Source: Chitinophaga pinensis
Lineage (GTDB): Bacteria; Bacteroidota; Bacteroidia; UKL13-3
Assembly (NCBI GenBank): GCA_945870425.1
Contig: CAMBSD010000006.1
Location: 1 to 64,000 of the forward strand
Direction: 5' to 3'
Length of the DNA stretch: 64,000 nucleotides
Positions 3,154 to 27,011 of the stretch are shown piece after piece (within the stretch, counting starts at the first letter, position 1; every line of letters begins with the position of its first letter). Both the position numbers and the translations under genes were made by a program. The notes below the pieces were generated by a model. The model saw only the letters and a list, made by a program, of their open reading frames with translations. It made no database searches and was not told where the DNA came from.

Positions 3154-4797
3154 ATGCTAATTACAGCCCTAATTCTACTACAAGCTTTTTTCGTAAGTTA
3201 TTATTTCGGTTATCTAGGTTTTACTCGGTTTCAGTATGTATTGGTAAGCAAAACTGAATCCTTTAAAGTTCATGTAAGCCTTTATCAATTGATGGGTTTG
3301 GCTTTATTGGCTTTTATTTGCTCTGTACTGCATTTGTGTTATCCCATCAATGCGTCCTCATTTTACCTTATAAGTTTTAGTGCATTAGCAAGTGGTTTTA
3401 TGATGCAGCCAAGGATATTTAAAGAAGCTACGAGGCATTTAATGGAGGGTATTAAGGCCAATAAATTCCCATATCTAATAAGCCTTATCATTGCTGTGTT
3501 AAGTATTTGCTCCAGACCTGGCATAGGCGACATTGCAGACTATCATTTACAAGCACTCAAGTGGGCTGAACAATATAAAAATATTATAGGTTTAGGTAAT
3601 TTCAACCGTCCATTGGCAAACAACAATTGGTGGTTTAATATTCAAGCTCTTTTTGGAAATGCATCTCATTCTATTTATGTTCTGAATGCACTTATGTTCA
3701 TATTGGTTTTTACCTTTCTTGTGAATAATGAAAGCAAAAACAACATGCTGAAAATATTTGGTTTTGTATTAGCTGGTTTTGTGGCTGTCTCTACCAAAAC
3801 AGCCTTTGTGGGCAGTGTTACGCCTGATTATGCCATTACCAATTTGATTTTTATTTGCAGTTATTTATTCCTTAGTTATCATTTTAGTAAAGAAAAAACA
3901 TACTTACATCTCATCATTTTATTTGCTCTTTTTGCTGTAACCATCAAACTTAATTCAGTTCTTTTGCTTGGCTTGGCTTTATTGTCATTTATTGAGCTAA
4001 TAAAAGATAATCACTCAAAAAAATATTGGATTGGATATTCAGTAATTGCATCATTCACACTAGGCATTTGGGTATTGGGTAATGTCATGGTATCAGGCTG
4101 GCTTTGCTATCCTGCAAGTGGTTTGGATTTATTTCAGTTCGACTGGAAAATGCCAAAAGAGGTGCTAGATATGGAGCGTTTTAGCATCAAACAATGGGGA
4201 AAAGTTCCTTTTCAAGATATTCAAATAACTGCACAAATGAGCCTAGCTGAATGGCTCCCACTCTGGTTAGAAAAGCTTGATTTTTTCAATAAAGGACTGC
4301 TTGGTTTAAGTGTATTAACTACACTGCTATTTATCATCAAATATGCTTTCGAAAAAGAAAAACAAAAGACTATTCTAAGTCTAGCCATAATAAGTTTGAT
4401 AGGTATTACTTTTTGTTTTTCAAATGGCCCACATGTTCGATATGCCTATGGATATATAGTTGTTCTGCTCGCCTTGGGTTTGGCTTATCTCCTGAGTAAA
4501 AAAATCAATTTAATAAACAAATGGATGATGATAACAACGCTTGTTATATCGATTGTTGGAGTTGCTCCCAAGATAGTTTCTATGAAAAATGAAGGTATTT
4601 TATCTAGCTCAATAGTGTATCCAAAAGCCTATCCTATTTACAATTTAGATAGCATGATATCAAATGGAAATACATTATACATTACCAAACAAAACAGTAC
4701 TTGTTGGACATGCTTTCCATGTTCGTATTATATGCTCAAAAATTGTCAACTTAGGGGTAATACCTTTGAAGAAGGATTTAGGGTGAATCATCCTTAA
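3154..4797 (+). CDS. polytopic membrane protein, LIC_10190-like
   Basis: A 547-residue inner-membrane protein with roughly a dozen hydrophobic segments. A conserved-looking loop GIGDIADYHLQALKWAEQY lies near residues 123-141, followed by LGNFNRPLANNNWWF. This resembles the LIC_10190 family of putative glycosyltransferase-like membrane proteins, which have GT-C topology. The C-terminal region has a periplasmic-looking tail with several cysteines (STCWTCFPCSYYMLKNC). The gene follows purD by nine bases but has no evident metabolic link to it. Family assignment is from memory of motif pattern; activity is unknown. Confidence 0.6.
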   Translation: MLITALILLQAFFVSYYFGYLGFTRFQYVLVSKTESFKVHVSLYQLMGLALLAFICSVLHLCYPINASSFYLISFSALASGFMMQPRIFKEATRHLMEGIKANKFPYLISLIIAVLSICSRPGIGDIADYHLQALKWAEQYKNIIGLGNFNRPLANNNWWFNIQALFGNASHSIYVLNALMFILVFTFLVNNESKNNMLKIFGFVLAGFVAVSTKTAFVGSVTPDYAITNLIFICSYLFLSYHFSKEKTYLHLIILFALFAVTIKLNSVLLLGLALLSFIELIKDNHSKKYWIGYSVIASFTLGIWVLGNVMVSGWLCYPASGLDLFQFDWKMPKEVLDMERFSIKQWGKVPFQDIQITAQMSLAEWLPLWLEKLDFFNKGLLGLSVLTTLLFIIKYAFEKEKQKTILSLAIISLIGITFCFSNGPHVRYAYGYIVVLLALGLAYLLSKKINLINKWMMITTLVISIVGVAPKIVSMKNEGILSSSIVYPKAYPIYNLDSMISNGNTLYITKQNSTCWTCFPCSYYMLKNCQLRGNTFEEGFRVNHP

Positions 4798-4965
4798 TTT
4801 TTATTAAACTCAGCCCTCTGACGCATGTCTCACCCATGTCAAATAATGGTTTGAGGCAATTTCAAAAAGCATACAAGTATGGTATATCAACAATACATTT
4901 TAAAGGTTAAAGAAATGGTATAATAAATAATAAATTTTGAGTGAAATGGTTGCGCTTATTAATTA

Positions 4966-6105
4966 CTAAAATGCTTCACCTAAAGTAAAATACATACCTT
5001 GTATACCATTTTCACCTCGCCCATAATCGATACGTAGATTGATACGTTCTTTGCGCATAGCAATGCCTCTAATACCTATGCCATAGTTGGGTTTTATATT
5101 TTCAAACAAATTACTCAAAGTATTGCCAACATTACCAGCCCCAGCAAAAACCACCATAGAAATGGGCCCCCATACTTGTTTACGCAGCTCTGCTTGAACG
5201 GCAGCGGCATGCTTATCTCTAAATCGACCATTGTAATAACCGCGCATGTACATATCACTGCCAATTGTTCCCATTTGCCTAAATGGAATATTTCCCTCGT
5301 TAAAATTACCAAATGCCTGCAGTGCCAAAACATTATGGTTCCATAATTTGATATAGGTTCGGGCATCTACTGTCAAGTTATTGAATTCATAATTACTGCC
5401 GATAGCTTTGCTATTAAACAAAGTGCTGATGTCAATTAAATGACCATGAAGAGGATAATAGATATGGTCACGGTTATCAAAACTAAGGACCAAACCTGCA
5501 CCGGCTGTATAGCTATTATTCACACCAATGATGTTTGAGGCTTTTAAGGCACTGCCATCCACAAAACCCAAATCACTCATCTTGTCTGTTTCAAGGTTGA
5601 TACCGGCATATACATTTTTATATATTTGATAAGTCCCTCGAAGCTGTAATCTATTTAAAGTAAAATCGTAAAGCTCCTTGCTAGCATCTGTTTGTGTATT
5701 GCCGATGCCCCAATAGTTTTCGATAAATTTGGTATAGGTAAAAGAACCCTTGAAATTGAAATTATTTCGATTGGTAAAAATATCAAAATAAGGTTTGATA
5801 CTGCTTTGTTTGTTTTGTGTATATTGTCCGTTCAACCTTACCAATGAAGGTCGAGTTACAACATCCTTTTTGGTATGAAATAAATACACTAAACTCAATC
5901 CCAATCTCCAACCTGTTTCAGGATAAAGGCCCCATATGGGTAATGCCATAAAGTATTTTTTGTTGGGTTTGCTTGTGTCACCTTCTACTTTATCATATAT
6001 CTTGTCTATAAATTTTTCAAGTTTACCTTTCTTTTGTGCATGAACTTGGCTTATCGATACAATACCAAAGACTAACAGGATGATAATTCTTTTGGTTATA
6101 ACCAT
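4966..6105 (-). CDS. BamA/TamA-type outer membrane beta-barrel protein
   Basis: A 379-residue protein with a signal peptide (cut after VHAQ, about residue 23) and then beta-barrel sequence to a terminal aromatic (FTLGEAF). Features of the Omp85/bacterial surface antigen barrel are visible. These are alternating hydrophobic strands, an MGTIGSDMYMRGYYNGRFRD segment matching the family's loop 6 (R-G-Y/F-x-G-R-F-x-D), and a closing strand INLRIDYGRGENG. There are no POTRA repeats, so it is barrel-only, as is common for accessory family members in Bacteroidota. It begins inside the end of the upstream DUF4421-like gene (10-bp overlap), which suggests translational coupling. Function: outer-membrane assembly or transport, inferred. 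Confidence 0.8.
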   Translation of the reverse strand: MVITKRIIILLVFGIVSISQVHAQKKGKLEKFIDKIYDKVEGDTSKPNKKYFMALPIWGLYPETGWRLGLSLVYLFHTKKDVVTRPSLVRLNGQYTQNKQSSIKPYFDIFTNRNNFNFKGSFTYTKFIENYWGIGNTQTDASKELYDFTLNRLQLRGTYQIYKNVYAGINLETDKMSDLGFVDGSALKASNIIGVNNSYTAGAGLVLSFDNRDHIYYPLHGHLIDISTLFNSKAIGSNYEFNNLTVDARTYIKLWNHNVLALQAFGNFNEGNIPFRQMGTIGSDMYMRGYYNGRFRDKHAAAVQAELRKQVWGPISMVVFAGAGNVGNTLSNLFENIKPNYGIGIRGIAMRKERINLRIDYGRGENGIQGMYFTLGEAF

Positions 6106-7106
6106 TTGATTGCAGGAATTAATGTATGAAAACGAAAACCTGCATTAAAACCAATGCTAGTAGATTGAAAAGCAACAAAGTTAGGATAACCAAACATGTT
6201 CAAATTAGCATCATAAGTGGCAAATACATTAAAGAAATATTTCTTTCCATTTCTACCAATGGATAGTTTAGCATGTGCATCAAATTCAGGACTTATTCCA
6301 CGGCTGTTATCTGTAATACTTTTTATCTGATAAGACGCCAAACCAAGTCCAGCAAATGCAGATGGAGAAATAAACCAAGTACCACCCTTCATGCAGAAAT
6401 TGTAAGCATATCCTGGCCTTACATTCAAATGAGTCATACTTAAACTTCTCATACCCGTAAGCTCACCATAATTTTTTATTACATCAATATCGGGCGGAAT
6501 CAGGGGTTGAGGAGAATCAATTTTTCTGTAACCCAAATTCATCATCAACAAAAATGCCCCAGATGATTTCTTTTGAAACTCAGCCATGCTCAAAGCACTG
6601 CGGTAAGAAAATTTACGATGATTAAAATTGTAGTATAGAGTTAAACCATGCATTTGAATATTAGCATCCGGGAGTTTTGAAATACTACTAGTATCAATCA
6701 TACCTGTGCTTCTATAAATGCCGCTAAAAGAGCGTGAATAGACCTCACCACCTGAGCGAGATTGATAATAGCTGAATGAGAAATCATAAAAGCGTGTTCG
6801 GCCAAAAGTCTTTTCATCACGATTGGTATAGGGTACCTGCACACCGAAAGCTACTGTCACATATTTTAATCCTAAAGACAAACCTGTCTGCCAACTTGAG
6901 TTGGGTGATAGTTGCAGCAATTGTTGCGAATTTGTAAATCTTGGAGGGTTAATGAAAAAGTCGAAATTATTTACCCACGTGTTAAACTGCACATTATAAG
7001 GTCTTTCAAACTGAACAATATAATTGCTGTCTTTCTGTGCAATGCCTATGCAACAAAAAACTACTATGAAGATTAACAGCAAAACGATTCTTCTCATTTG
7101 CTGCAA
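6096..7106 (-). CDS. DUF4421-like outer membrane protein
   Basis: A 336-residue protein with a signal peptide (MRRIVLLLIFIVVFCCIGIA, then QKD) followed by amphipathic beta-strand sequence. It resembles the DUF4421 family of Bacteroidota envelope proteins. Recognisable patterns are LSPNSSWQTGLSLGLKYVTV, GRTRFYDFSFSYYQSRSGG and a late FYNFNHRKFSYRSA-like segment (here YYNFNHRKFSYRSA). Function is unknown; a small outer-membrane barrel is likely. It is the first gene of a two-gene unit with the BamA-like barrel protein, whose ATG lies inside this gene's 3' end. Confidence 0.7.
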   Translation of the reverse strand: MQQMRRIVLLLIFIVVFCCIGIAQKDSNYIVQFERPYNVQFNTWVNNFDFFINPPRFTNSQQLLQLSPNSSWQTGLSLGLKYVTVAFGVQVPYTNRDEKTFGRTRFYDFSFSYYQSRSGGEVYSRSFSGIYRSTGMIDTSSISKLPDANIQMHGLTLYYNFNHRKFSYRSALSMAEFQKKSSGAFLLMMNLGYRKIDSPQPLIPPDIDVIKNYGELTGMRSLSMTHLNVRPGYAYNFCMKGGTWFISPSAFAGLGLASYQIKSITDNSRGISPEFDAHAKLSIGRNGKKYFFNVFATYDANLNMFGYPNFVAFQSTSIGFNAGFRFHTLIPAIKWL

Positions 7107-7291
7107 TTATACAATGCTTTCGTTTTAAAATCTATTAGCACTATGGATATAATAATTTGTTTACTTGAAAATGCATGCATTTGGATGCATATTTTAAGTC
7201 CAGTATTAGGTTTTAGTGACACCATTTTTGTTTTAGAATGGCAATTACATCTGTTTAGCCTAAGCCATCATGCAATAACAGCCTAAATTTA

Positions 7292-15606: not shown

Positions 15607-15635
15607 AAAGCCCTTCTACATAGCAAAAGGGCTTT
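15607..15635 (-). terminator. terminator between convergent genes
   Basis: A 9-bp perfect stem, AAAGCCCTT (15607-15615) with AAGGGCTTT (15627-15635), lies 40 bases beyond the TonB-protein stop. T-rich but interrupted tracts occur on both sides, so it may act in both directions. Confidence 0.6.
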
Positions 15636-15674: not shown

Positions 15675-16502
15675 TTATTCTTGTGTGAAATTAATGGGTA
15701 AAATTAATCTTACAGGTACTTGCGTTCCATTTTGTATACCAGGTCTCCAAGTGGGCATTTCGCTTATCACCCTCATGGCTTCATCATCGCAGCCAAATCC
15801 TATGCCTTGCATGATATTGATATCACTTATGCTACCATCTGCATTCACCACAAACGATAACATGACTCTACCTGTTCGGTTGCTTTCTTTGGCTAATTTA
15901 GGATATTGCAAATTGTTAGTTATATAGTTATACATGGCCTGCATACCACCTGGGAATTCAGGCATGGTTTCTACTATGTCAAATGGTTTTTCAGGAGCTT
16001 TAAGGGTTGGGAAATTTCCTGCTTTGCCTATGCCATTTCCTCCTTGTCCAATGGTTGGCAAACTGCCAAGGCCAGCGCTCATGATACCTGAGCTGTTTTG
16101 TATAATTTGTGTACTTATGGTTGTGATGCTATTATTTTTTTTGATAGCCTTTTTGATGTCTTTATCCTTAACGATATTATTATAATCTATCACATCACTT
16201 ATCTTCTCAAATGATATATCGGGCACAATTTGAAGGTTCTCTATTTTGATCACCGCAGTTTCTATTATTTTTTTCGTATCACTTTTCAAAGCTGTTAAAG
16301 TAGGTGTTGTATTGCTTGAATGTGTTTTACCATAGACAAGGGCAAATAAAGACAATAAAATAAAGGGACTTAGAGCATAGGTCATACCCAAATTGGTGTA
16401 TTTGGCTGCATCTTTTCTCAATGCATAGGCACCATACATTTTGTTGCGGTTTTCAAATACAATCTCGTCCAGATTGTTTTTTGAAGGATTGAAAATATTC
16501 AT
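15675..16502 (-). CDS. TonB-family energy-transducing protein
   Basis: A 275-residue protein of the Bacteroidota TonB type. It has an N-terminal cytoplasmic stretch with ENRNKMYGAYALRK (about residues 17-30), which is typical of this group, one membrane helix (about 40-60) and a periplasmic linker. The C-terminal TonB domain (about 185-275) begins PEFPGGMQAMYNYITNNLQYP and ends in WRPGIQNGTQVPVRLILPI. It would pass proton-motive energy from ExbBD to outer-membrane receptors; no exbBD genes are present here. It lies 81 bases downstream of the multi-PAS kinase on the same strand. Its start codon sits in the arm of a 12-bp perfect inverted repeat. Confidence 0.9.
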   Translation of the reverse strand: MNIFNPSKNNLDEIVFENRNKMYGAYALRKDAAKYTNLGMTYALSPFILLSLFALVYGKTHSSNTTPTLTALKSDTKKIIETAVIKIENLQIVPDISFEKISDVIDYNNIVKDKDIKKAIKKNNSITTISTQIIQNSSGIMSAGLGSLPTIGQGGNGIGKAGNFPTLKAPEKPFDIVETMPEFPGGMQAMYNYITNNLQYPKLAKESNRTGRVMLSFVVNADGSISDINIMQGIGFGCDDEAMRVISEMPTWRPGIQNGTQVPVRLILPINFTQE

Positions 16503-16547
16503 AGCATAATTGATTATACCTGATAAACTTTAATCATGCTATGAATA
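16496..16547 (-). promoter_or_regulatory. start-codon-occluding inverted repeat before the TonB gene
   Basis: Perfect 12-bp arms TATTCATAGCAT (16496-16507) and ATGCTATGAATA (16536-16547) are separated by 28 bases. Inner GATTA/TAATC pairs could extend the stem. On the mRNA the TonB ATG (16500-16502) is in the 3' arm, so a folded leader would hide the start codon. It could instead be a DNA operator. No T-run follows. Confidence 0.45.
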
Positions 16548-16583
16548 GTATTATTAATTTTCTTAATGACGAAATCATGACAA

Positions 16584-19500
16584 TTAATGATCAGGCAATG
16601 AGAAGTAAAATCGGGTGCCCTTGCCTAAATCGGAATCTAACCATACATGGCCTCCTTTGTCTTCCACTATTTTTTTAACAATGGCCAATCCTACACCAGT
16701 GCTCTCAAAAGAGTCGCGTGATTGCAGGGTTTGAAATATTTGAAAAACTTTTTCGTGAAATTCAGGTGATATACCAGGTCCATTGTCTTCCACGCAAAAT
16801 TCGTGCATTTGCCCTTTAAATTGATACCTCACAAAAACTTCAGGATTTTCGTTTGAATTGTATTTAATGGCATTGCTTATATAATTGGTCAACACTTGCT
16901 CAACAGCGATGGGCTCGTTGTGTATTTTAGGCAAGTTATCCTGAACATGTATTTTGAATTTTTCTGGAACAGCTATAGAGTCCACAATCTCTTTCACCAT
17001 AAAATTCAAGTCAATATCAACTGGGTTTGGTTTCATCCTACCTGCTCTTGAATATTCTAAAATACCATTGATTAATGACTCCATTCTATTTACGCGGGTC
17101 CTAAGCAAATCAAAATTGGTTTTCACATCACCTTTCATTTGACCTTCTAAATCTTCTTCAATCCACATAGATAGGTTGTTGATGCCTCGCAATGGTGCTT
17201 TTAAATCATGAGATACAATATATGCAAATTGGTCTAGCTCTTTGTTCTTACGTTCAAGTTCATTTGTATACTCTAACAATTTGCGCTCAATTTCCTTCTG
17301 ACTAGTAATATCCTGAAGGATACCGCTAACAATAAGTTTGCCGTTTCTTTTCTCAGGAATACCTTTAGTTCGCACATCAACATAATTTCCTTTTTTAGTG
17401 ATGATTTGACCTTCTATTTCAAATGCTTCTTCCTTGTCAATAACATTCTTAAATTTTTCTAAGAAACGGGTTCTCGATTCTTCAGTATAAAATTTAAACG
17501 CCTCGTTAATGCTTAATGAAATCGGCTCATCAATTTCGTATATATTATACATTTCCTTGGCCCATTTCACAGTGTGCTTACTTACGTCAATCTCCCAACC
17601 ACCTACTTTCGCAATACGTTGCGCCTCTTCTAAGTCTTGTTGGTATTTTAAAATTTGTTCTTCAGCAAGTTTTCTTTCAGTAATATCAAAGTTAACTCCA
17701 ATTAATCGTGATGGTTGATTTTGATGGTCTTTAAATAATTTTGAAAAGGCAGCCACATGCCTTACCTCATTTACAGAATTGATTATTCTAAACTCACCTT
17801 TATAGCCATCCAAATTTTGAATAGAATATTGAACTTCTTTGTTTACCTTAATTTTATCATCAGGGTGCAATGTTTTTTCAAAAGCATCGTAATCACCCGA
17901 AAATTTATTGGGTTCTAAGTCAAAGATTTCATACATGGATTTACCCCAAATAAGTGTATTATTTGTGATATTCCAATCCCAAATACCAAGATTCGCTGCA
18001 TTGGTAGCAAGTAATAGACGTTCTTCACTTTCTCTAAGTTTTTCTTCAGCTAATTTACGCTCAGTAATATCAATACCAAAACCAATAACGTTTGTTACCG
18101 CTTCATTATTATCAACAATCGGATACATTCTACGTAACATCCATTTATTGGATCCATCCGGTTTTAGGATACTCTCCTCGTATTCATATATTTGTTTTGA
18201 ATTATAAGCTCTATTAAACACCTCTCTTCTGGCATCAGCTATTTTCGTATCTCTTCCATAATGATCGCAGTATTCGTAATCATTATGACCTATAGCCCAT
18301 GTTCGTTTTTCAGCATCCTGAATGGCTACTTCATTTATAAATAAATATTTATGATTGCTGTCAAACACAACTATATCACTTGGAATTTTATTCAAAATTC
18401 TTTCATAGAAATCTTTGAGATGTTTAATTTCTTGTTCGGCTTTTTTTCGTTCAGTAATATCCCTTGAGTTAACAACTAATCCGCCAATTTCATCATTAGA
18501 GATAAGATTATTTCCAATTGATTCAATATTTAAATAATGCCCATCTTTATGTCTAAATCTAAATTCAAATAAATCAGAAACACCTCCTTTATCAATACCT
18601 CGATTAAATTCGGCAATAACCCTTTGCATATCTTCAGGATGCACAAAATGGAGTATATCTTGATTTAAAGTTTCATCTACCGTGTAACCAAAAACCCTAT
18701 AAAAAGAAGGACTTTCATATATTATTTTCCCTTCTTTTGATAATACGGTGGTAATATCTGTGGCATTTTGTACAAGAGACCTAAAGCGGTTTTCGCTTTG
18801 CTCAAGTTTTTGTTGAACCATTTTGCGCTCAGTGATATCTCGTATGGTAGCTATGATGAGCTCTTGACCTTCGATTTTTGCATATTTTATGCTTGCTTCT
18901 ACCGGGAAAGTGCTGCCATCAGATCTAATATTTTCACCTTCTAATAGCAGTTCGGATTTTTCTTTTACCTCTGCAAAATGTTTTTGCCAATCCTTTTTAG
19001 TTTGAAATATCTTCTCTATCTCCATCATAGTGGAGCCTATAATTTCTTCCTTTTTTTTGCCTAAATTTTTTGCATGTGTTTGATTCACATAAACTAGTTT
19101 TCCGTCCCAATCAGCTACAGATATGGCATCACTAATTCGCTCTGTAATTTGGTTGTAGAGTAATATTTGTTTTTCACGTTCTTTGATATTTGTAATATCA
19201 GTTAAAACGCCAATAATATATTTACCACCTGCATTTTTGAGACAACTTTTCTTAACTAAAAGAATTTTAGTTTCGTTTTTTTCATCTACAAAAATACCTT
19301 CATTTAAAAAGTCAATTTTGGTTGCAAATTGTTTTTCGTCTTCACTAATATATTGGTTGCCTAATTCCTCCCCAAGAAACTCAACCTCTGTTTTGCCAAT
19401 AATATCCTCTTTCTTTTTGTTGATTAATTTGCAATAGGCTTCATTTGCAATTACCCATCTATGATTTCTATCTTTTGCAAATACGGGATTAGGAATAGAA

Positions 19501-21356
19501 TTAAGGATTGAATCTAGGAAATTATTGTTTGAAATAATTTCATCTTGCGCCATTTTAAGTGCTGTTATTTCCCTTGCTATGGCTTGGTATCCAACAAGTC
19601 TTCCATTCTTATAAATGGATTGAACATTTTGTCCAATCCATTTTACTTTATGGTCTTTGGTTACAATAGGAAACTCGTGGTAAAGTACGTCATTTTCATG
19701 TTCCTTTTTTCTAAGATAAACTTCGGTTACCACTTTTTTGAAATCGTCTCTTACCAAATCAAGATACCTCATGTTAAGTAGTTCTTGATTGGAAAATCCT
19801 GTAATGCTGGATGAAACTTCATTTACGTAAGTGAATTTTCCTTGTGTGTCAGAATTATAAAAAATGTCAGAAGCTGATTCAATTAATAATCTAAATTTTC
19901 CTTCGCTTTCTTTTAATTTTGATTCAGCTTCGTATCGCTCAAATGCGCCTCCCAAACTGTTAGCAAAATTTTGAAGTAAACCAATTTCAGTATTACTCCA
20001 TGATTTTTCATAACTTACTACATCAAACCCAATAAAGCCCCAATAATTACCGCTAACCATGATAGGAACTAATAATACCGAGACAATATTTTGTGGTAAT
20101 AGCTGTGCTTGCTCAGTTTCAGGAAAACTGCTTGTTAAACCCCCAATATAATTTCCTTTAACAAAATTAGTATACCATCTCTCATAGCCTAGTTCTTGGT
20201 AGGATAACTTTTGATGTTTTGAAGCATAAGTAAAATAGCTTTTCTTTAAATTGTCAAAGGTATACCTGTGGCTGAATACTGGACTTTCATTCCGTAAATA
20301 CTCATTTTGAAAAATAGTTATTTTATCAATGGAAATATTTTCAATTAGATTTTTTAATATTTTCTCAATGGCATTATTAAAATCATTGTTAGTTAGTAAT
20401 TCAGACGATGCAAAATTGATGGCTTGTAATAACTTTTCATTTTCTTGCAGTCGATGTTCTACTTCCTTTCTTTCTGTGATATCAGTCTCTATAGCTATGA
20501 AACCTATATGGTTTTTATTGCCATCGTACATGGGTGTAATTGCTGTTGACAGCCAATATCCTTTGCCAGATTTTGAATAATTATAAATTTCGCAATTACA
20601 TTCTGATAATGAAGTTATGGCATCGCTAATTAGCTTTTTTGTATTCGGGTCAGTCTTTTCCCCATGCAATAATGTACCGGGCTTTTTTCCTATTATTTCT
20701 TCCGTACTATATTCTGTTAAGCGAGAAAATCCTTTGTTAATCCAAATGATAGTTCCATCTTGGTCTGAAACACTTACTGCACTATGCGTATTCTCTGCTA
20801 TTAAGGCTAGTTTAGTAATTTCCTCTTCAAATGATTTTCTTTTTGTGATATCATATGATATCGACATAAATTGAATGGGAAGACCAAGGTTATTATTAAA
20901 AGGAATGATTACAGTATCTAACCAGAAATATTGCCCATCTTTATTTTTATCTTTAATTTCGCCTTTCCATACCTCACCAGCTAGTATGGTATCCCACATT
21001 TCTGAAAAAAAATCTTTACTGTGGTAATTTGAGTTAATTTTTTTGTGAGATGAGCCTATAAGTTCGGCATCATTATAACCTGATATGTCGCAAAAATTTT
21101 GATTTACATAAGTTATTTTTCCTTTTATATCGGTAGTGGCAACAATTACTGCAGTATTTACAGCCCATTTTAGATCATTTAATTCTTTAAAAGATTCTTT
21201 GGAGCTTAATTCAAGTGTTCTTTCTAGTTGATCGTAATCGTTCTGAAATTGATGATAAGTCTGATTAATAATTTGAATTAAACTATCTATATCTTCAGTA
21301 TATTTAGAATCCTCTCCAAAAAGTCTTATCAGTTGTCGTTTTAGTAAGCGATGCAT
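16584..21356 (-). CDS. soluble multi-PAS/GAF sensor histidine kinase
   Basis: A 1590-residue cytoplasmic kinase with no membrane helix or signal peptide. After a short coiled region it has two PAS domains (about residues 60-300), a GAF domain (about 310-465), and seven more PAS domains. Most PAS domains end in the DITERK-type linker helix. The kinase core starts with the H-box VSHDLKAPLRG (phospho-His about 1380). It then has the N-box NYISNAIKYNSNEN, G1 EDNGPGIS and G2 STGVGLAIVKK. The kinase is complete but carries no receiver domain, so its partner is elsewhere. The upstream hybrid kinase gene ends 12 bases before it, indicating one operon. Confidence 0.92.
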   Translation of the reverse strand: MHRLLKRQLIRLFGEDSKYTEDIDSLIQIINQTYHQFQNDYDQLERTLELSSKESFKELNDLKWAVNTAVIVATTDIKGKITYVNQNFCDISGYNDAELIGSSHKKINSNYHSKDFFSEMWDTILAGEVWKGEIKDKNKDGQYFWLDTVIIPFNNNLGLPIQFMSISYDITKRKSFEEEITKLALIAENTHSAVSVSDQDGTIIWINKGFSRLTEYSTEEIIGKKPGTLLHGEKTDPNTKKLISDAITSLSECNCEIYNYSKSGKGYWLSTAITPMYDGNKNHIGFIAIETDITERKEVEHRLQENEKLLQAINFASSELLTNNDFNNAIEKILKNLIENISIDKITIFQNEYLRNESPVFSHRYTFDNLKKSYFTYASKHQKLSYQELGYERWYTNFVKGNYIGGLTSSFPETEQAQLLPQNIVSVLLVPIMVSGNYWGFIGFDVVSYEKSWSNTEIGLLQNFANSLGGAFERYEAESKLKESEGKFRLLIESASDIFYNSDTQGKFTYVNEVSSSITGFSNQELLNMRYLDLVRDDFKKVVTEVYLRKKEHENDVLYHEFPIVTKDHKVKWIGQNVQSIYKNGRLVGYQAIAREITALKMAQDEIISNNNFLDSILNSIPNPVFAKDRNHRWVIANEAYCKLINKKKEDIIGKTEVEFLGEELGNQYISEDEKQFATKIDFLNEGIFVDEKNETKILLVKKSCLKNAGGKYIIGVLTDITNIKEREKQILLYNQITERISDAISVADWDGKLVYVNQTHAKNLGKKKEEIIGSTMMEIEKIFQTKKDWQKHFAEVKEKSELLLEGENIRSDGSTFPVEASIKYAKIEGQELIIATIRDITERKMVQQKLEQSENRFRSLVQNATDITTVLSKEGKIIYESPSFYRVFGYTVDETLNQDILHFVHPEDMQRVIAEFNRGIDKGGVSDLFEFRFRHKDGHYLNIESIGNNLISNDEIGGLVVNSRDITERKKAEQEIKHLKDFYERILNKIPSDIVVFDSNHKYLFINEVAIQDAEKRTWAIGHNDYEYCDHYGRDTKIADARREVFNRAYNSKQIYEYEESILKPDGSNKWMLRRMYPIVDNNEAVTNVIGFGIDITERKLAEEKLRESEERLLLATNAANLGIWDWNITNNTLIWGKSMYEIFDLEPNKFSGDYDAFEKTLHPDDKIKVNKEVQYSIQNLDGYKGEFRIINSVNEVRHVAAFSKLFKDHQNQPSRLIGVNFDITERKLAEEQILKYQQDLEEAQRIAKVGGWEIDVSKHTVKWAKEMYNIYEIDEPISLSINEAFKFYTEESRTRFLEKFKNVIDKEEAFEIEGQIITKKGNYVDVRTKGIPEKRNGKLIVSGILQDITSQKEIERKLLEYTNELERKNKELDQFAYIVSHDLKAPLRGINNLSMWIEEDLEGQMKGDVKTNFDLLRTRVNRMESLINGILEYSRAGRMKPNPVDIDLNFMVKEIVDSIAVPEKFKIHVQDNLPKIHNEPIAVEQVLTNYISNAIKYNSNENPEVFVRYQFKGQMHEFCVEDNGPGISPEFHEKVFQIFQTLQSRDSFESTGVGLAIVKKIVEDKGGHVWLDSDLGKGTRFYFSLPDH

Positions 21357-21368
21357 CTTTTTTCTCTC

Positions 21369-24300
21369 TTAGTCTAATTGATAACCATGTTTTGTTAGTT
21401 TCACAAATAAATCATCTTGTTTGAATGGTTTAGATATGAAATCATTCATTCCACATTCCAATGCCTTTCTTTTTATTTCCGGAAAAGCATCGGCAGTCAA
21501 GGCAATGATAGGTACATGATGATTGAGTACTTTTGAGTTCTTATCTCTTATTATCTTGGTAGCTTCATATCCATCCATTAATGGCATCTGTAAGTCCATC
21601 AAAATTACATCATAGCTTTTCTGGCTCAAGATTTCAATTGCTTCTACTCCATTGTTAACTGTGTCAACATAGGCATTCCATTTATGTAAGATTTGTTTGG
21701 CTACAATTTGATTCATGTTATTGTCTTCAACTACCAATATTTTCAGATCAGTTAAATCTTTCAAATTAGAAACTACTTTTTTAAATTTATGAAGTTTTCT
21801 GCTAATACCAAATGGTAAATCTAAAATAAATTTAGATCCAACTCCTAATTCACTTTCAACCTTTATTTTCCCATGCTGCAATCCGACTAGTCTCTTGGAG
21901 ATTGTTAATCCAAGCCCAGTACCACCATATTTGCGGGTAATTACATTACTTTCTTGGGTGAAGCTTTCAAATATGGTTTCAATTTTAGAGGGTGCTATGC
22001 CAATTCCTGTATCTGCTATTTTGAAAGCTAATTGTATAGAGTTATCTTCAATGTTTAAGATGTCAACACCGAAAGTGATACCCCCTTTTTCTGTAAACTT
22101 AATGGCATTGTTTATTAAATTTACTAAAATTTGATTTAATCTATAAGGATCCCCTATCAGCTGTTGAGGAAGATTTTCATCAATATTAATTTCAAAGTAA
22201 ATACCCTTCTGTGAAGTCTTAAGCAAAAAAGTTTTTACTAAATTGTCAAGTAATTCTGTTACATCAAACTCTATATGCTCAAGTTCAACCTTGCCAGCTT
22301 CGATTTTACTAAAGTCTAAAATATCATTAATTATCACCAATAGATTATCAGCAGAGTGTTTAATAATGTTTAAGTTATCTTTGAATTTTATGTCAATATT
22401 ATCGCCAAGTAAAATATCAGTTATACCCACAATGGCATTCATAGGGGTTCTTATTTCATGACTCATATTGGTTAAAAAGAGCATTTTTGCTTTTTCAGAT
22501 GATTCGGCCACCAGCTTTGCGTGAATTAGTTCTTGCTCATTTTTTTTGTTTTGAGAAATATTTATTGCCACACAAGTAGCTGTTTTTTTATCTTGTTTGA
22601 AATTTTCTGAGTAGGGTGAAAATCTTATTTCATATGTAATCTCTTTACCAAATTTTGTAAATGATAATTCAACAGACTCTTGTGATTGATGAGCAAAGCA
22701 ATTATGGATGGCCTGGTTAATTTTTTGTTTGTATTGCTCTGGAAGCTGATCAACCAGTCTTTCATTGTTAGTTAGGTTTATATCAAGGTGATTGTTTTTT
22801 TCATTCACAAAAGATTCAACTACAAATCCTTTATCGTCAATAATAAATGGAATAATGGGTAACGAACCTCCTAAGTTTTTTAATTGCTCTTGTTTCTGAT
22901 GAATCAGCTTTGATGACTTTGATTGAGTAACTATAAAAATGTAGGCCCCAATTAGAAGAAGAATAACTAAAATAGATATAGGTATTACATATAATTTAGA
23001 GAGATAAAATGGGTAAGGAATAAGAATTTCTAGTTCTGTAATATTGTTATCGTATTGATTAGGCAATTCGCTATGTGAACGAATCTCAAAACGATGCTTT
23101 CCATAGTTCAATTCTTGAATACTAATATCTCCAATTGTATTTGCTTGCCATTTCCCCCCATCAATTCTCCACATAGCACTAATTTTACTGTTATTCAATA
23201 TCATGTTTTTCGACAGGGCTTTCCAATGAATAAATAAACTTCTGCCTACCGATATTTTTCCTGTAATTTCAATAATCGGATGAGATTCATTTATTCGTTT
23301 AAGATTGAAAACATTTAGGCCACCTCCATATGTTCCTATTAGAATTTTGTTATTTTTATATTTTATAGGCCAAGACGCCTGACCTGAAAGCCCTTCGGCA
23401 GAGCCGATTTTATAAAACAAGCCATTTTGATATGCTGTTAAGAATTCTTTACCACCATACCATAGTGTATTATTGCTGTCAAATTCAATATCACAATAAT
23501 CGAGAGGAAAATCTATGTTATTTTCAATACTTACAGATATTAAGCTGTCATGATTCTTTAGCATCGAAATGCCAGCACCTGCAGAAGCAAACCAAATGTT
23601 TCCATATTTATCACTGGCAATATCACTTACCTTACCAATAATATTTTCTCCAATCTTTGACCACTTTCTTATGTTATAATTATTATCTACTTTAATTAAA
23701 TCTGAATTTGTTCCTAACCAAACCGTACCATTCTTTTCAAATAGCATCGAATAGAGTCTTGTGCCATTTGTTAGTATTTTATTAATGGGTGTGATTTGTT
23801 CAAATTTACCATTTGCAAGCTTGTATACCCCGACAGTTCTATTTTTATTAGGGTCGCGGTTATCGAAAACTGAAAACCATAAGTCTCCATTCGTATCCTT
23901 CCATATTTTATGAACACATTTATCTGTAAAACCGTTTGCTAGGCCTATTCGAGAGAATCTTGAACCATCAAACTTATAGGTGCTATTTTCTTGAACTCCG
24001 CTCCCAATCCAAATATTCCCTTTCTTATCCTGGTTAATAGTTGTGATGTCTTGAATAGTAATTCCAAGAATATCATTTATGTCTGTGTGCCTATTTTTAT
24101 TATCAATTTTGGTAAGACCTCTGTATTTTGCCAACCATGTATTTTTATAACTATCAATAAAAATATCATAAATAGCATTTGTTTCGTATGTATTTCCTAC
24201 ATCAATTTTTTTGCATTTTGTTTCGTTGGTATTATAACAGAGTAATTTGTTGATGCATCCAATCCAAATATTTCCATCAGGAGAAAACTGAATAAAACAC

Positions 24301-25205
24301 TTGTTATAATAATTTTCAAAAATACCCGATTCATTCCATTCATTATTTTGTTTGATAAGAATTTTTCCAATATCAGAAAGTGCCATGATACTTCCATCTT
24401 TGTCAACATCAAAACTCTTGCATAAATTACTTGAAAAAGGGTTTTCTCTTGATAGTTTTCCGTCTTTTGTGTAAGTATAAATGCCATTTAAGGTATAGTT
24501 GCTATTTAAACAGAAATACAAATTACCCTTGTTATCTACTTGGCTATTTATTAATTGTGCCGACCAATTTAGTCTTTCTGTGATAGGTTTTAAAATTCCT
24601 TTTTGAGACAATGAGAATATTTGACGTTCATCATTAAAAAGCATACTATTATCTCTATTTTGAAGTAATCGAACAGAGCCTGCATTTTGAACATTGTTGA
24701 GCTTTTTTAAGACACTGTATTTTTTTCCTTTTTTTTGAATTAATTTTATTTCCGCATAATTATTTCCAACATGGCAAATGAAATATTCGCTTCCATCTGG
24801 TAATAATGCATAATCTATTATGCGCTGAACTTTATTGTCAATTGTATATAATAACTTTCTATATTTATTGTTTTTAATTTCGTAAAGTGTATCAAGGTAT
24901 AAGCAAATTAAGGTGTTTTCATCTTTCTCTCGAATGGTTAGGTTTTGATTACCTATTCTGTTTGAATGAATGAATTTAATGTTATTCCATTTGTAGCCAT
25001 CAAACTTCGCAATGCCGCTCTTTGTGCCCAGCCACGTGGTACCATTCTTTTGAACATATATTCCATAGGTTTTCCCTTCAGGCAAACCTTCATTTTGTCC
25101 AAATGACACTATTCTCCAAGGTTCATTATATTGTATGGCACTTGCATGCCTAGGAGCTAAGCTTGCAAATAAAATAAAGAATAAATATATATACCTTAAT
25201 TGCAT
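21369..25205 (-). CDS. propeller-type hybrid sensor kinase/response regulator
   Basis: A 1278-residue protein. A signal peptide (cut near SAIQ) leads into a periplasmic two-component-regulator propeller of about 620 residues with repeated W-(I/L/F)-G-(T/S/C) blades such as GTTWLGTKSGIAKFDG and GNIWIGSG. A Y_Y_Y-type immunoglobulin-like domain follows (about 640-725), then one membrane helix (about 740-762) and a PAS-like segment. The kinase has H-box NMSHEIRTPMNA, N-box NLINNAIKFTEKGG and GGTGLGLTISK. A C-terminal receiver has VVEDNNMNQ, DLQMPLMDG (phospho-Asp about 1202) and SKPF. Unlike many propeller hybrids it has no AraC-type DNA-binding domain, so output is phosphotransfer. Its ATG overlaps the FIST stop by one base. 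Confidence 0.93.
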   Translation of the reverse strand: MQLRYIYLFFILFASLAPRHASAIQYNEPWRIVSFGQNEGLPEGKTYGIYVQKNGTTWLGTKSGIAKFDGYKWNNIKFIHSNRIGNQNLTIREKDENTLICLYLDTLYEIKNNKYRKLLYTIDNKVQRIIDYALLPDGSEYFICHVGNNYAEIKLIQKKGKKYSVLKKLNNVQNAGSVRLLQNRDNSMLFNDERQIFSLSQKGILKPITERLNWSAQLINSQVDNKGNLYFCLNSNYTLNGIYTYTKDGKLSRENPFSSNLCKSFDVDKDGSIMALSDIGKILIKQNNEWNESGIFENYYNKCFIQFSPDGNIWIGCINKLLCYNTNETKCKKIDVGNTYETNAIYDIFIDSYKNTWLAKYRGLTKIDNKNRHTDINDILGITIQDITTINQDKKGNIWIGSGVQENSTYKFDGSRFSRIGLANGFTDKCVHKIWKDTNGDLWFSVFDNRDPNKNRTVGVYKLANGKFEQITPINKILTNGTRLYSMLFEKNGTVWLGTNSDLIKVDNNYNIRKWSKIGENIIGKVSDIASDKYGNIWFASAGAGISMLKNHDSLISVSIENNIDFPLDYCDIEFDSNNTLWYGGKEFLTAYQNGLFYKIGSAEGLSGQASWPIKYKNNKILIGTYGGGLNVFNLKRINESHPIIEITGKISVGRSLFIHWKALSKNMILNNSKISAMWRIDGGKWQANTIGDISIQELNYGKHRFEIRSHSELPNQYDNNITELEILIPYPFYLSKLYVIPISILVILLLIGAYIFIVTQSKSSKLIHQKQEQLKNLGGSLPIIPFIIDDKGFVVESFVNEKNNHLDINLTNNERLVDQLPEQYKQKINQAIHNCFAHQSQESVELSFTKFGKEITYEIRFSPYSENFKQDKKTATCVAINISQNKKNEQELIHAKLVAESSEKAKMLFLTNMSHEIRTPMNAIVGITDILLGDNIDIKFKDNLNIIKHSADNLLVIINDILDFSKIEAGKVELEHIEFDVTELLDNLVKTFLLKTSQKGIYFEINIDENLPQQLIGDPYRLNQILVNLINNAIKFTEKGGITFGVDILNIEDNSIQLAFKIADTGIGIAPSKIETIFESFTQESNVITRKYGGTGLGLTISKRLVGLQHGKIKVESELGVGSKFILDLPFGISRKLHKFKKVVSNLKDLTDLKILVVEDNNMNQIVAKQILHKWNAYVDTVNNGVEAIEILSQKSYDVILMDLQMPLMDGYEATKIIRDKNSKVLNHHVPIIALTADAFPEIKRKALECGMNDFISKPFKQDDLFVKLTKHGYQLD

Positions 25206-26344
25206 TAATTTTCTTTAAATGTGGTGATGGTCATGGTTTGGTTATGTAATTCGCATTTAGCATTTTTATTGAATGGAGAAATTTCTCCGTATGAATAAAA
25301 CCCACATAGAACAGCGCTTTCACCTAATACCTCTTTTACAGATTCAACCTCTTCTTCAACCATTTGCTTTAAAACAAGTTTTCTACCCACGCAACTAATC
25401 AAAATGGCCAAGTCAGGTGACCCACTATTTTTTTCAATTGTTTTTAATGCGGCTCCTTCTGCACCTTTGATTAGTCGATCAAAATTTGCTTTCATGAGTC
25501 TAACATAACTTCCTTCTGGAATATCTCCTGCAAAGGTTAATGACTGTGCTTCTTCATCTACAGCCAAAATGGTTCTAACAACAGGTATATCATCTGACTC
25601 AGTTCTAAGATTTAGCGGAAATAATAAACCCGATGCTGGAAGATCTGTTGCATGCTCGCCAAGAAATGATTTATATAGTTGAAGGGCCGGCTGTCTATCT
25701 AATTCAAATAACACATTATTCTTTGATTTGGTTACCAGTCTTTCAATACCAAAACTATCCCAACCACCAAGTGAACCATAGGATATTTCAAGTTTTTCAC
25801 CATAAAAGCCAATGGCATTAATAATATTTTCACTTGATTTGTTACCACTACCAATTACATATGTTTCTTTGAAATCGGCACCATCTCCGGCTAAGCCACC
25901 AGTAACTTTAATGTTGTCTGGAAGATTTTCTCTAAAACCTTTTACCAGTTCAGACCCATTTACACCAAGGCCATCTGATAAAACAAAAACATGTTTGAGC
26001 CCATCTTTTGGCAGGATATCTGCCAGTTCTTTCGCTTTTAAATAACTCTCTTCTGACGAATTTATTGAGACATATTTTGAAATCAATTGGCTACTCTCAA
26101 ACTCAACAGCAGTTGCAACCATGCTATCATCATTAACAGTAGTTCCAGTTATTTCACCCGATGTAGAACATCCAATAAGAATAGCTTTTGGGTACTTGAT
26201 TTTAATAAAAGCAAAATTACTTTCATCTTTAATCAGCTTTGTTGCTCCAAAAATGAGGACCAATTGCGTAGTGTCTGAATTTGCCTTGCTTGAGATTTCA
26301 ACCCAACCATTTTTCGCGGTGAATTTTAATTGAGAAATTTTCAA
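25205..26344 (-). CDS. FIST domain sensory protein
   Basis: A 379-residue soluble protein with both halves of the FIST module. FIST-N covers about residues 28-215, with ILIGCSTSGEI and HVFVLSDGLGVNGSELVKG. FIST-C covers about 220-365 and ends in CGFYSYGEISPF followed by CELHNQTMTITTF. FIST proteins are ligand sensors. One branch (NosP) is a haem protein that detects nitric oxide and is encoded next to a histidine kinase, the same arrangement as here. Whether this copy binds haem cannot be read from sequence. It is the first gene of the signalling operon: its stop TAA shares a base with the propeller-kinase ATG. The promoter must lie in the 49 bases shared with the divergent phosphatase. Confidence 0.9.
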   Translation of the reverse strand: MKISQLKFTAKNGWVEISSKANSDTTQLVLIFGATKLIKDESNFAFIKIKYPKAILIGCSTSGEITGTTVNDDSMVATAVEFESSQLISKYVSINSSEESYLKAKELADILPKDGLKHVFVLSDGLGVNGSELVKGFRENLPDNIKVTGGLAGDGADFKETYVIGSGNKSSENIINAIGFYGEKLEISYGSLGGWDSFGIERLVTKSKNNVLFELDRQPALQLYKSFLGEHATDLPASGLLFPLNLRTESDDIPVVRTILAVDEEAQSLTFAGDIPEGSYVRLMKANFDRLIKGAEGAALKTIEKNSGSPDLAILISCVGRKLVLKQMVEEEVESVKEVLGESAVLCGFYSYGEISPFNKNAKCELHNQTMTITTFKEN

Positions 26345-26393: not shown

Positions 26394-27011
26394 ATGAAAA
26401 AATATAAATTAATCTATATAGTTAGACATGGCGAGACAGAATTTAACAAATTAGGGATAGTTCAGGGGAGTGGTGTCGATACGGATTTAAATGAAACTGG
26501 ACTCTTTCAGGCGAAGCAATTCTTTGATAATTACCAAAATATAGATTTTGATAAAATTTATATCTCAGCCCTTAAACGAACCAAGCAAAGCATTCAATCT
26601 TTTATTGATAAGGGAATTCATTATAAAATCTTGCCTGAATTAAATGAAATTAGTTGGGGCGAGTTTGAAGGTAAAGTGCAAGATTTTAAAGAACGTGAGT
26701 TTTATCAAAAAGCAGTAAGCGCTTGGAATAACGGAAATTATGATGTATCCGTGGCTCAAGGCGAAACCCCCAACCAACTCCAGGCCCGCCAAAGGATTGC
26801 CGTTCAAAAAATATTGGCAGCAAGTGAGGAAAAAACCGTTTTAGTTTGTATGCATGGTCGTGCTTTAAAAAGCATGGTATGCTTACTATTAAATCAGCCA
26901 TTGAGTATGATGGATGAATACCAACATACCAATTTAGGTTTATATCTATTTGCCCATGATGGAGAGAAATTTGAGCTGATTAAGAGAAATGATATTGAAC
27001 ATTTGCACTAA
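26394..27011 (+). CDS. histidine phosphatase (phosphoglycerate mutase-like)
   Basis: A 205-residue cytoplasmic enzyme of the branch-1 histidine phosphatase superfamily. It has the catalytic RHGET motif (VRHGETEFNKLGIVQG, about residues 11-26), an SALKRTKQS segment with the second Arg, the acid ELNEISWGEFEG and the second catalytic His in VCMHGRAL (about 150). Substrate is not specified; relatives include phosphoglycerate mutase and small-molecule phosphatases. It is followed after 12 bases by the prolyl oligopeptidase gene, probably in one transcript, and is divergent from the FIST operon. Confidence 0.9.
   Translation: MKKYKLIYIVRHGETEFNKLGIVQGSGVDTDLNETGLFQAKQFFDNYQNIDFDKIYISALKRTKQSIQSFIDKGIHYKILPELNEISWGEFEGKVQDFKEREFYQKAVSAWNNGNYDVSVAQGETPNQLQARQRIAVQKILAASEEKTVLVCMHGRALKSMVCLLLNQPLSMMDEYQHTNLGLYLFAHDGEKFELIKRNDIEHLH

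Follow-up and report, generated by a model that had tools for sequence, protein, structure and literature searches.

The window (the whole 64,000-nucleotide stretch of Chitinophaga pinensis DNA that was analysed) contains a compact signaling locus on its reverse strand, in which a gene for a FIST-FIST_C protein is followed by genes for a propeller hybrid histidine kinase and a soluble many-PAS histidine kinase, and then by a TonB-like gene (Table 1). The FIST stop codon and the ATG of the propeller hybrid have base 25205 in common (TAATG), giving a 1-base overlap, and a 12-nt gap (21357-21368) separates the propeller hybrid from the many-PAS kinase; both features had been read off by the first-pass annotation and are confirmed by the open reading frame coordinates. 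Pfam assigns FIST and FIST_C to the first protein, Reg_prop, HisKA, HATPase_c and REC to the second, PAS repeats, GAF, HisKA and HATPase_c to the third, and TonB_C to the protein beyond the unit. Together with hydropathy, these assignments agree with the earlier description of a close gene set for a FIST sensor and a many-PAS kinase, both soluble, and for a propeller hybrid in the membrane. No DNA-binding domain was found by Pfam in the three-gene unit, again as had been stated. The gene set is not due to chance, as it consists of three long open reading frames with strong family matches, and its order is repeated in two further genera (G029/L030 and G304/L165).

Table 1. Features of the FIST locus in the window (coordinates from the first letter of the window)
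Feature	Coordinates	Strand	Description
Divergent histidine phosphatase gene (His_Phos_1)	26394..27011	+	Marks the orthologous locus by synteny in relatives
FIST-FIST_C protein	25205..26344	-	379 aa, TTG start; candidate cytosolic ligand sensor (Pfam, AF2)
Propeller hybrid histidine kinase	21369..25205	-	Signal peptide (by eye), Reg_prop ectodomain, TM 740-758, HisKA (H916), HATPase_c, receiver (D1204)
FIST-partner module, residues 1-72 of the third protein	21141..21356	-	Helix 3-13 and long helix 21-76
Soluble many-PAS kinase (third gene)	16584..21356	-	1590 aa; FIST-partner module, nine PAS, one GAF, HisKA (H1383), HATPase_c, no receiver
TonB C-terminal-domain protein	15675..16502	-	Pfam TonB_C; 81 nt downstream of the many-PAS kinase
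Terminator-like hairpin	15607..15635	-	13 pairs, T-rich tail; strong; 3' of the TonB-like gene

Between the many-PAS kinase and the TonB-like gene (81 nt) no terminator-like site was called, and one was called 3' of the latter, so a four-gene transcript that includes the TonB-like gene is possible. The earlier remark that TonB lies next holds for this locus and does not extend to relatives: among the genomes looked at, a TonB-like gene adjoins the unit in the window genome only and is absent from the corresponding place elsewhere. The Bacteroidota-type promoter pattern occurs at a frequency no higher than chance, and none lies upstream of FIST.

The first protein is a clear member of the FIST family, scoring 144.3 bits against Pfam FIST (PF08495; cut-off 23.2) and 128.9 bits against FIST_C (PF10442; cut-off 28.5), both above the curated thresholds. 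It is encoded by the single FIST gene of the window genome, its TTG start is backed by orthologues that start at the same residue, and hydropathy predicts no transmembrane helix. The AF2 model (pLDDT 94.5) finds its nearest PDB folds in the FIST chains of human FBXO22 (E 1e-10, TM about 0.5), followed by chorismatase and cyanuric-acid-hydrolase folds; a search of its sequence against PDB sequences gave no match. It thus has the FIST-FIST_C architecture and fold in common with the wider family, FBXO22 included, but differs from the human protein in lacking an F-box and in being encoded with bacterial signaling proteins. A C-terminal histidine, H367 (motif LHNQT), is near-invariant among orthologues. 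Separately, a Legionella anisa plasmid encodes a FIST protein that is 46% identical to that of the window and has no adjoining kinase (L045:4476-5642).

The second protein has one transmembrane helix by hydropathy and, judged by eye, a signal-peptide-like N-terminus; the periplasm is the predicted location of its sensor part. It carries the sole receiver of the unit, with D1204. Like the hybrid two-component systems (HTCS) of Bacteroides, it combines a periplasmic Reg_prop propeller, HisKA, HATPase_c and REC in one membrane protein. Unlike HTCS, its chain ends after REC, with no HTH or AraC match in place of the C-terminal DNA-binding domain, and it is encoded together with FIST and a second kinase. 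The third protein resembles multi-PAS soluble histidine kinases, which have many PAS domains, HisKA and HATPase_c and no transmembrane helix. A search with the protein cut into ten segments confirmed the nine PAS domains and one GAF domain that had been counted before, the GAF being weak and barely over the cut-off; a single weak hydropathy peak (424-442, score 1.73) lies inside the GAF region. What sets this protein apart from other multi-PAS kinases is a helical stretch at its N-terminus, which we designate the FIST-partner module.

This module covers the first ~70 residues of the third protein (MHRLLKRQ…LERxLELSSKE) and corresponds to a stretch common to the genes after FIST in relatives, M-x-LLxRQ-(K/R)(K/R)...AY...D...LERxLELSSxEL. 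The AF2 model of the module consists of a short and a long helix (pLDDT 86, pTM 0.53). No Pfam model reached its cut-off over the module, NCBIfam gave no match, and we found no published name for it in the open-access literature searched. The window module scores 109 bits and is the only module match in its genome; its gene lies 4.3 kb from FIST, with the propeller gene in between. We define a FIST/LLxRQ-module class as a FIST gene with a module-bearing partner, usually the next gene, and the window locus belongs to it.

The pairing of FIST with the module extends far beyond Bacteroidota. Of 80 loci selected with the FIST alignment as sole query and searched for module genes in six frames, 77 have a module gene directly downstream of FIST on the same strand, and no gene intervenes between the two in these wider loci. 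They come from more than a dozen phyla, the 80 including Bacteroidota, Pseudomonadota, Acidobacteriota, Planctomycetota, Cyanobacteriota, Gemmatimonadota, Nitrospirota, Patescibacteria and others. In one more of the 80, L122 (Cyanobacteria), the order is reversed, with the module gene upstream of FIST. Counted from the side of the module, 29 of 32 matches in 247 Bacteroidota genomes have FIST at a distance of 5 kb or less, where simple arithmetic expects well under 1. These 247 genomes also hold other FIST classes without the module; the Bacteroidota family f38, genus g76, has many genomes with a FIST match of a different class and no module match. Within the 64 genomes of the window's family, 24 have both FIST and module, 7 the module only and 32 neither, and the one genome with FIST only is cut by a contig end. 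In one of the seven module-only genomes (G022, L170), the module kinase (4185-7226) is closely preceded by a decayed FIST reading whose match contains one TGA and five TAA stop codons.

The proteins that carry the module vary in their output. They comprise HisKA kinases, hybrids, a HisKA_2 kinase, and GGDEF, EAL and SpoIIE proteins; among 59 module proteins, HATPase_c was found in 54, REC in 26, GGDEF in 3, EAL in 2 and SpoIIE in 1. Three further FIST partners, in relatives, consist of the module followed by an apparent SpoIIE-type phosphatase (L031:13111-14106, L032:4786-5790 and L033:4719-5699; Pfam-tested for L031 only). A search of plasmid records gave no match to the module; this search is insensitive, since an A. 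oryzae plasmid kinase carries it.

Given the occurrence of the module beside FIST across many phyla, the conserved partner of the window's FIST is most likely the third gene, the many-PAS kinase, and not the propeller hybrid that FIST overlaps. In the comparison of neighborhoods in other Bacteroidota, proposed in the first-pass annotation, the three-gene order recurs in G029 and G304; the first-pass annotation was not in a position to recognise the third gene as the partner. The 1-base overlap, which suggests translational coupling, could instead mean that FIST regulates the propeller hybrid and that the many-PAS kinase belongs to a system of its own. We consider this very unlikely, because the module kinase rather than the propeller hybrid directly follows FIST in almost all other loci, a relative (G018) keeps the propeller orthologue without FIST, and the hybrid lacks the module and has its sensor part on the predicted periplasmic side.

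Colinear full-length orthologues of the propeller hybrid occur in L030 and L163, with others in G304 and, in part, G001. A profile built from three colinear orthologues and searched against the 64 genomes of the window's family recovered orthologues of full or nearly full length only in G000, G001 (contig-cut), G018, G029 and G304. In all five, which span several genera, a module kinase gene comes immediately after the propeller gene; G018 is the one without FIST. The propeller hybrid is thus a family-specific addition, which also accords with the uninterrupted FIST/module pairs of the 77 wider loci. Its tie is to the kinase and not to FIST, since in G018 it persists beside a kinase that has neither FIST nor PAS domains. 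An explanation of the propeller as a recent insertion into a FIST/kinase pair was dropped, as G018 has propeller and kinase without FIST and G304 has the same three-gene order. Most relatives have no propeller at the orthologous locus, as would be expected of a chance neighbor functionally unrelated to the other two genes; the constant placing of all five family orthologues directly upstream of the module kinase, across several genera, makes such a coincidence rather doubtful.

The conservation of the module was compared between loci with and without FIST. The syntenic locus is recognised by the divergent histidine-phosphatase gene on one flank; several genomes also have rplM-rpsI-rpsB-tsf-pyrH-like genes (named by eye) on the opposite flank. 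The locus holds FIST, propeller and kinase in G029 and G304, FIST and kinase in G003, G016, G301 and G311, propeller and kinase in G018, and the kinase alone in G008, G019, G033 and G302. Pairs of FIST-bearing loci share 73% identity in the kinase core, and pairs of a FIST-bearing with a FIST-less locus 67%; for the whole module, the corresponding values fall from 68% to 35%. The fall is steepest in module residues 41-62, from 84% between FIST-bearing loci to 27% in five FIST-less kinases; the loci compared are related sequences, and the figures carry no formal p-value. Most FIST-less kinases lack PAS1 as well, which blurs the test. G033, the sole FIST-less kinase that keeps PAS1, has this domain unchanged (61%) and residues 41-62 down to 49%. 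FIST-less kinases are scattered over several places of the core tree (in which many forks are weak and branches long), which suggests that FIST was lost repeatedly at this locus. The module may have a second role, as module kinases persist without FIST in G033, G302, G008 and G019.

The first-pass annotation had linked the unit to NosP-type nitric oxide (NO) sensing, in which the FIST protein would bind haem, sense NO and control the adjacent kinase. Published work on NosP does concern stand-alone FIST proteins acting on a kinase (PMC12570481, PMC11237717), and the window protein is a FIST family member encoded with kinases. The near-invariant H367 has a counterpart, judged by eye, in the corresponding motif of an annotated NosP (HVNQT); the open-access papers searched name no haem-ligand residue. 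Against this stands the score of the window FIST on the NosP model (NF041558), 78.8 bits against an equivalog cut-off of 450, on which an annotated Azospirillum NosP, run as a control, reached 500.5 bits. In a tree made by a quick method and with very long outer branches, the window FIST falls in a large clade of 38 rows apart from Azospirillum NosP. NahK, the kinase of the annotated NosP locus, has a different N-terminus without the FIST-partner module. Neither window kinase looks like a NahK/ErcS-type partner; the propeller hybrid scores 166.9 bits on near_NosP_CTERM, short of its 400-bit cut-off, and this family is not among the best 25 listed for the third protein. On model score, clade and partner type, the window protein was rejected as a NosP. 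As for the function, NO and/or haem binding by FIST is given only as a possibility in a review (PMC8846402), and we regard NosP-type NO sensing here as unlikely; it would gain weight if the NosP partners of Burkholderia or Legionella were to carry the module. The earlier interpretation of the unit as a whole is thus partly supported. By analogy, the unit may act in the manner of NosP-NahK without belonging to that class. It shares with the NosP-NahK/NosK-NarR/NosR systems a stand-alone FIST protein encoded with the histidine kinase it is thought to control, but differs in its low NosP score, in the module that true-locus NahK lacks, and in having no c-di-GMP response regulator adjoining its kinase.

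We therefore lean towards an auxiliary-sensor two-component unit, which we hold to be the better-than-even explanation of the locus. The gene order, the domains, the near-obligate FIST/module pairing, the decay of the module without FIST and the constant placing of the propeller beside the module kinase are observed; the ligand, docking, direction of control, phosphotransfer route and output are inferred. Cytosolic FIST would bind a small ligand and dock on the N-terminal two-helix module of the many-PAS kinase, thereby changing the activity of this kinase, with the PAS and GAF domains acting as further cytosolic inputs. The propeller hybrid would form a lineage-specific membrane branch, whose periplasmic propeller senses a ligand outside. 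The many-PAS kinase has no receiver, which leaves D1204 of the hybrid as the nearest candidate acceptor for its phosphoryl group, and signals from inside and outside could meet there before output leaves the unit for proteins encoded at other loci. For such kinases, the receiver of the propeller hybrid cannot be the sole acceptor, since several relatives (L025-L028) have FIST and a many-PAS kinase with no propeller and no adjacent receiver.

An auxiliary sensor with kinases is an ordinary kind of system; the gene set is unusual, and the finding of wider interest is the FIST-partner module. In our estimate it is probably a portable two-helix docking module that couples one FIST clade to many outputs (histidine kinases, GGDEF/EAL proteins and SpoIIE phosphatases) in more than a dozen phyla; in the family of the window, a single gene unit would then wire this inside sensor to a propeller sensor in the periplasm. 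For FIST proteins, a widespread class of sensors, the module offers a concrete, testable candidate docking site. As a marker, it predicts the FIST partner even across an intervening gene, as in the window, and it advises caution in annotating FIST proteins of the module-paired kind as NO sensors.

The genes downstream of the module kinase also recur to some extent. A receiver protein is encoded by the next gene in 20 of 37 sampled loci. In several relatives, a small protein directly follows the module kinase at the same locus (L163:13673-14158, L030:13511-13993 and L165:12725-13213), with a Kazal-type match in L030.
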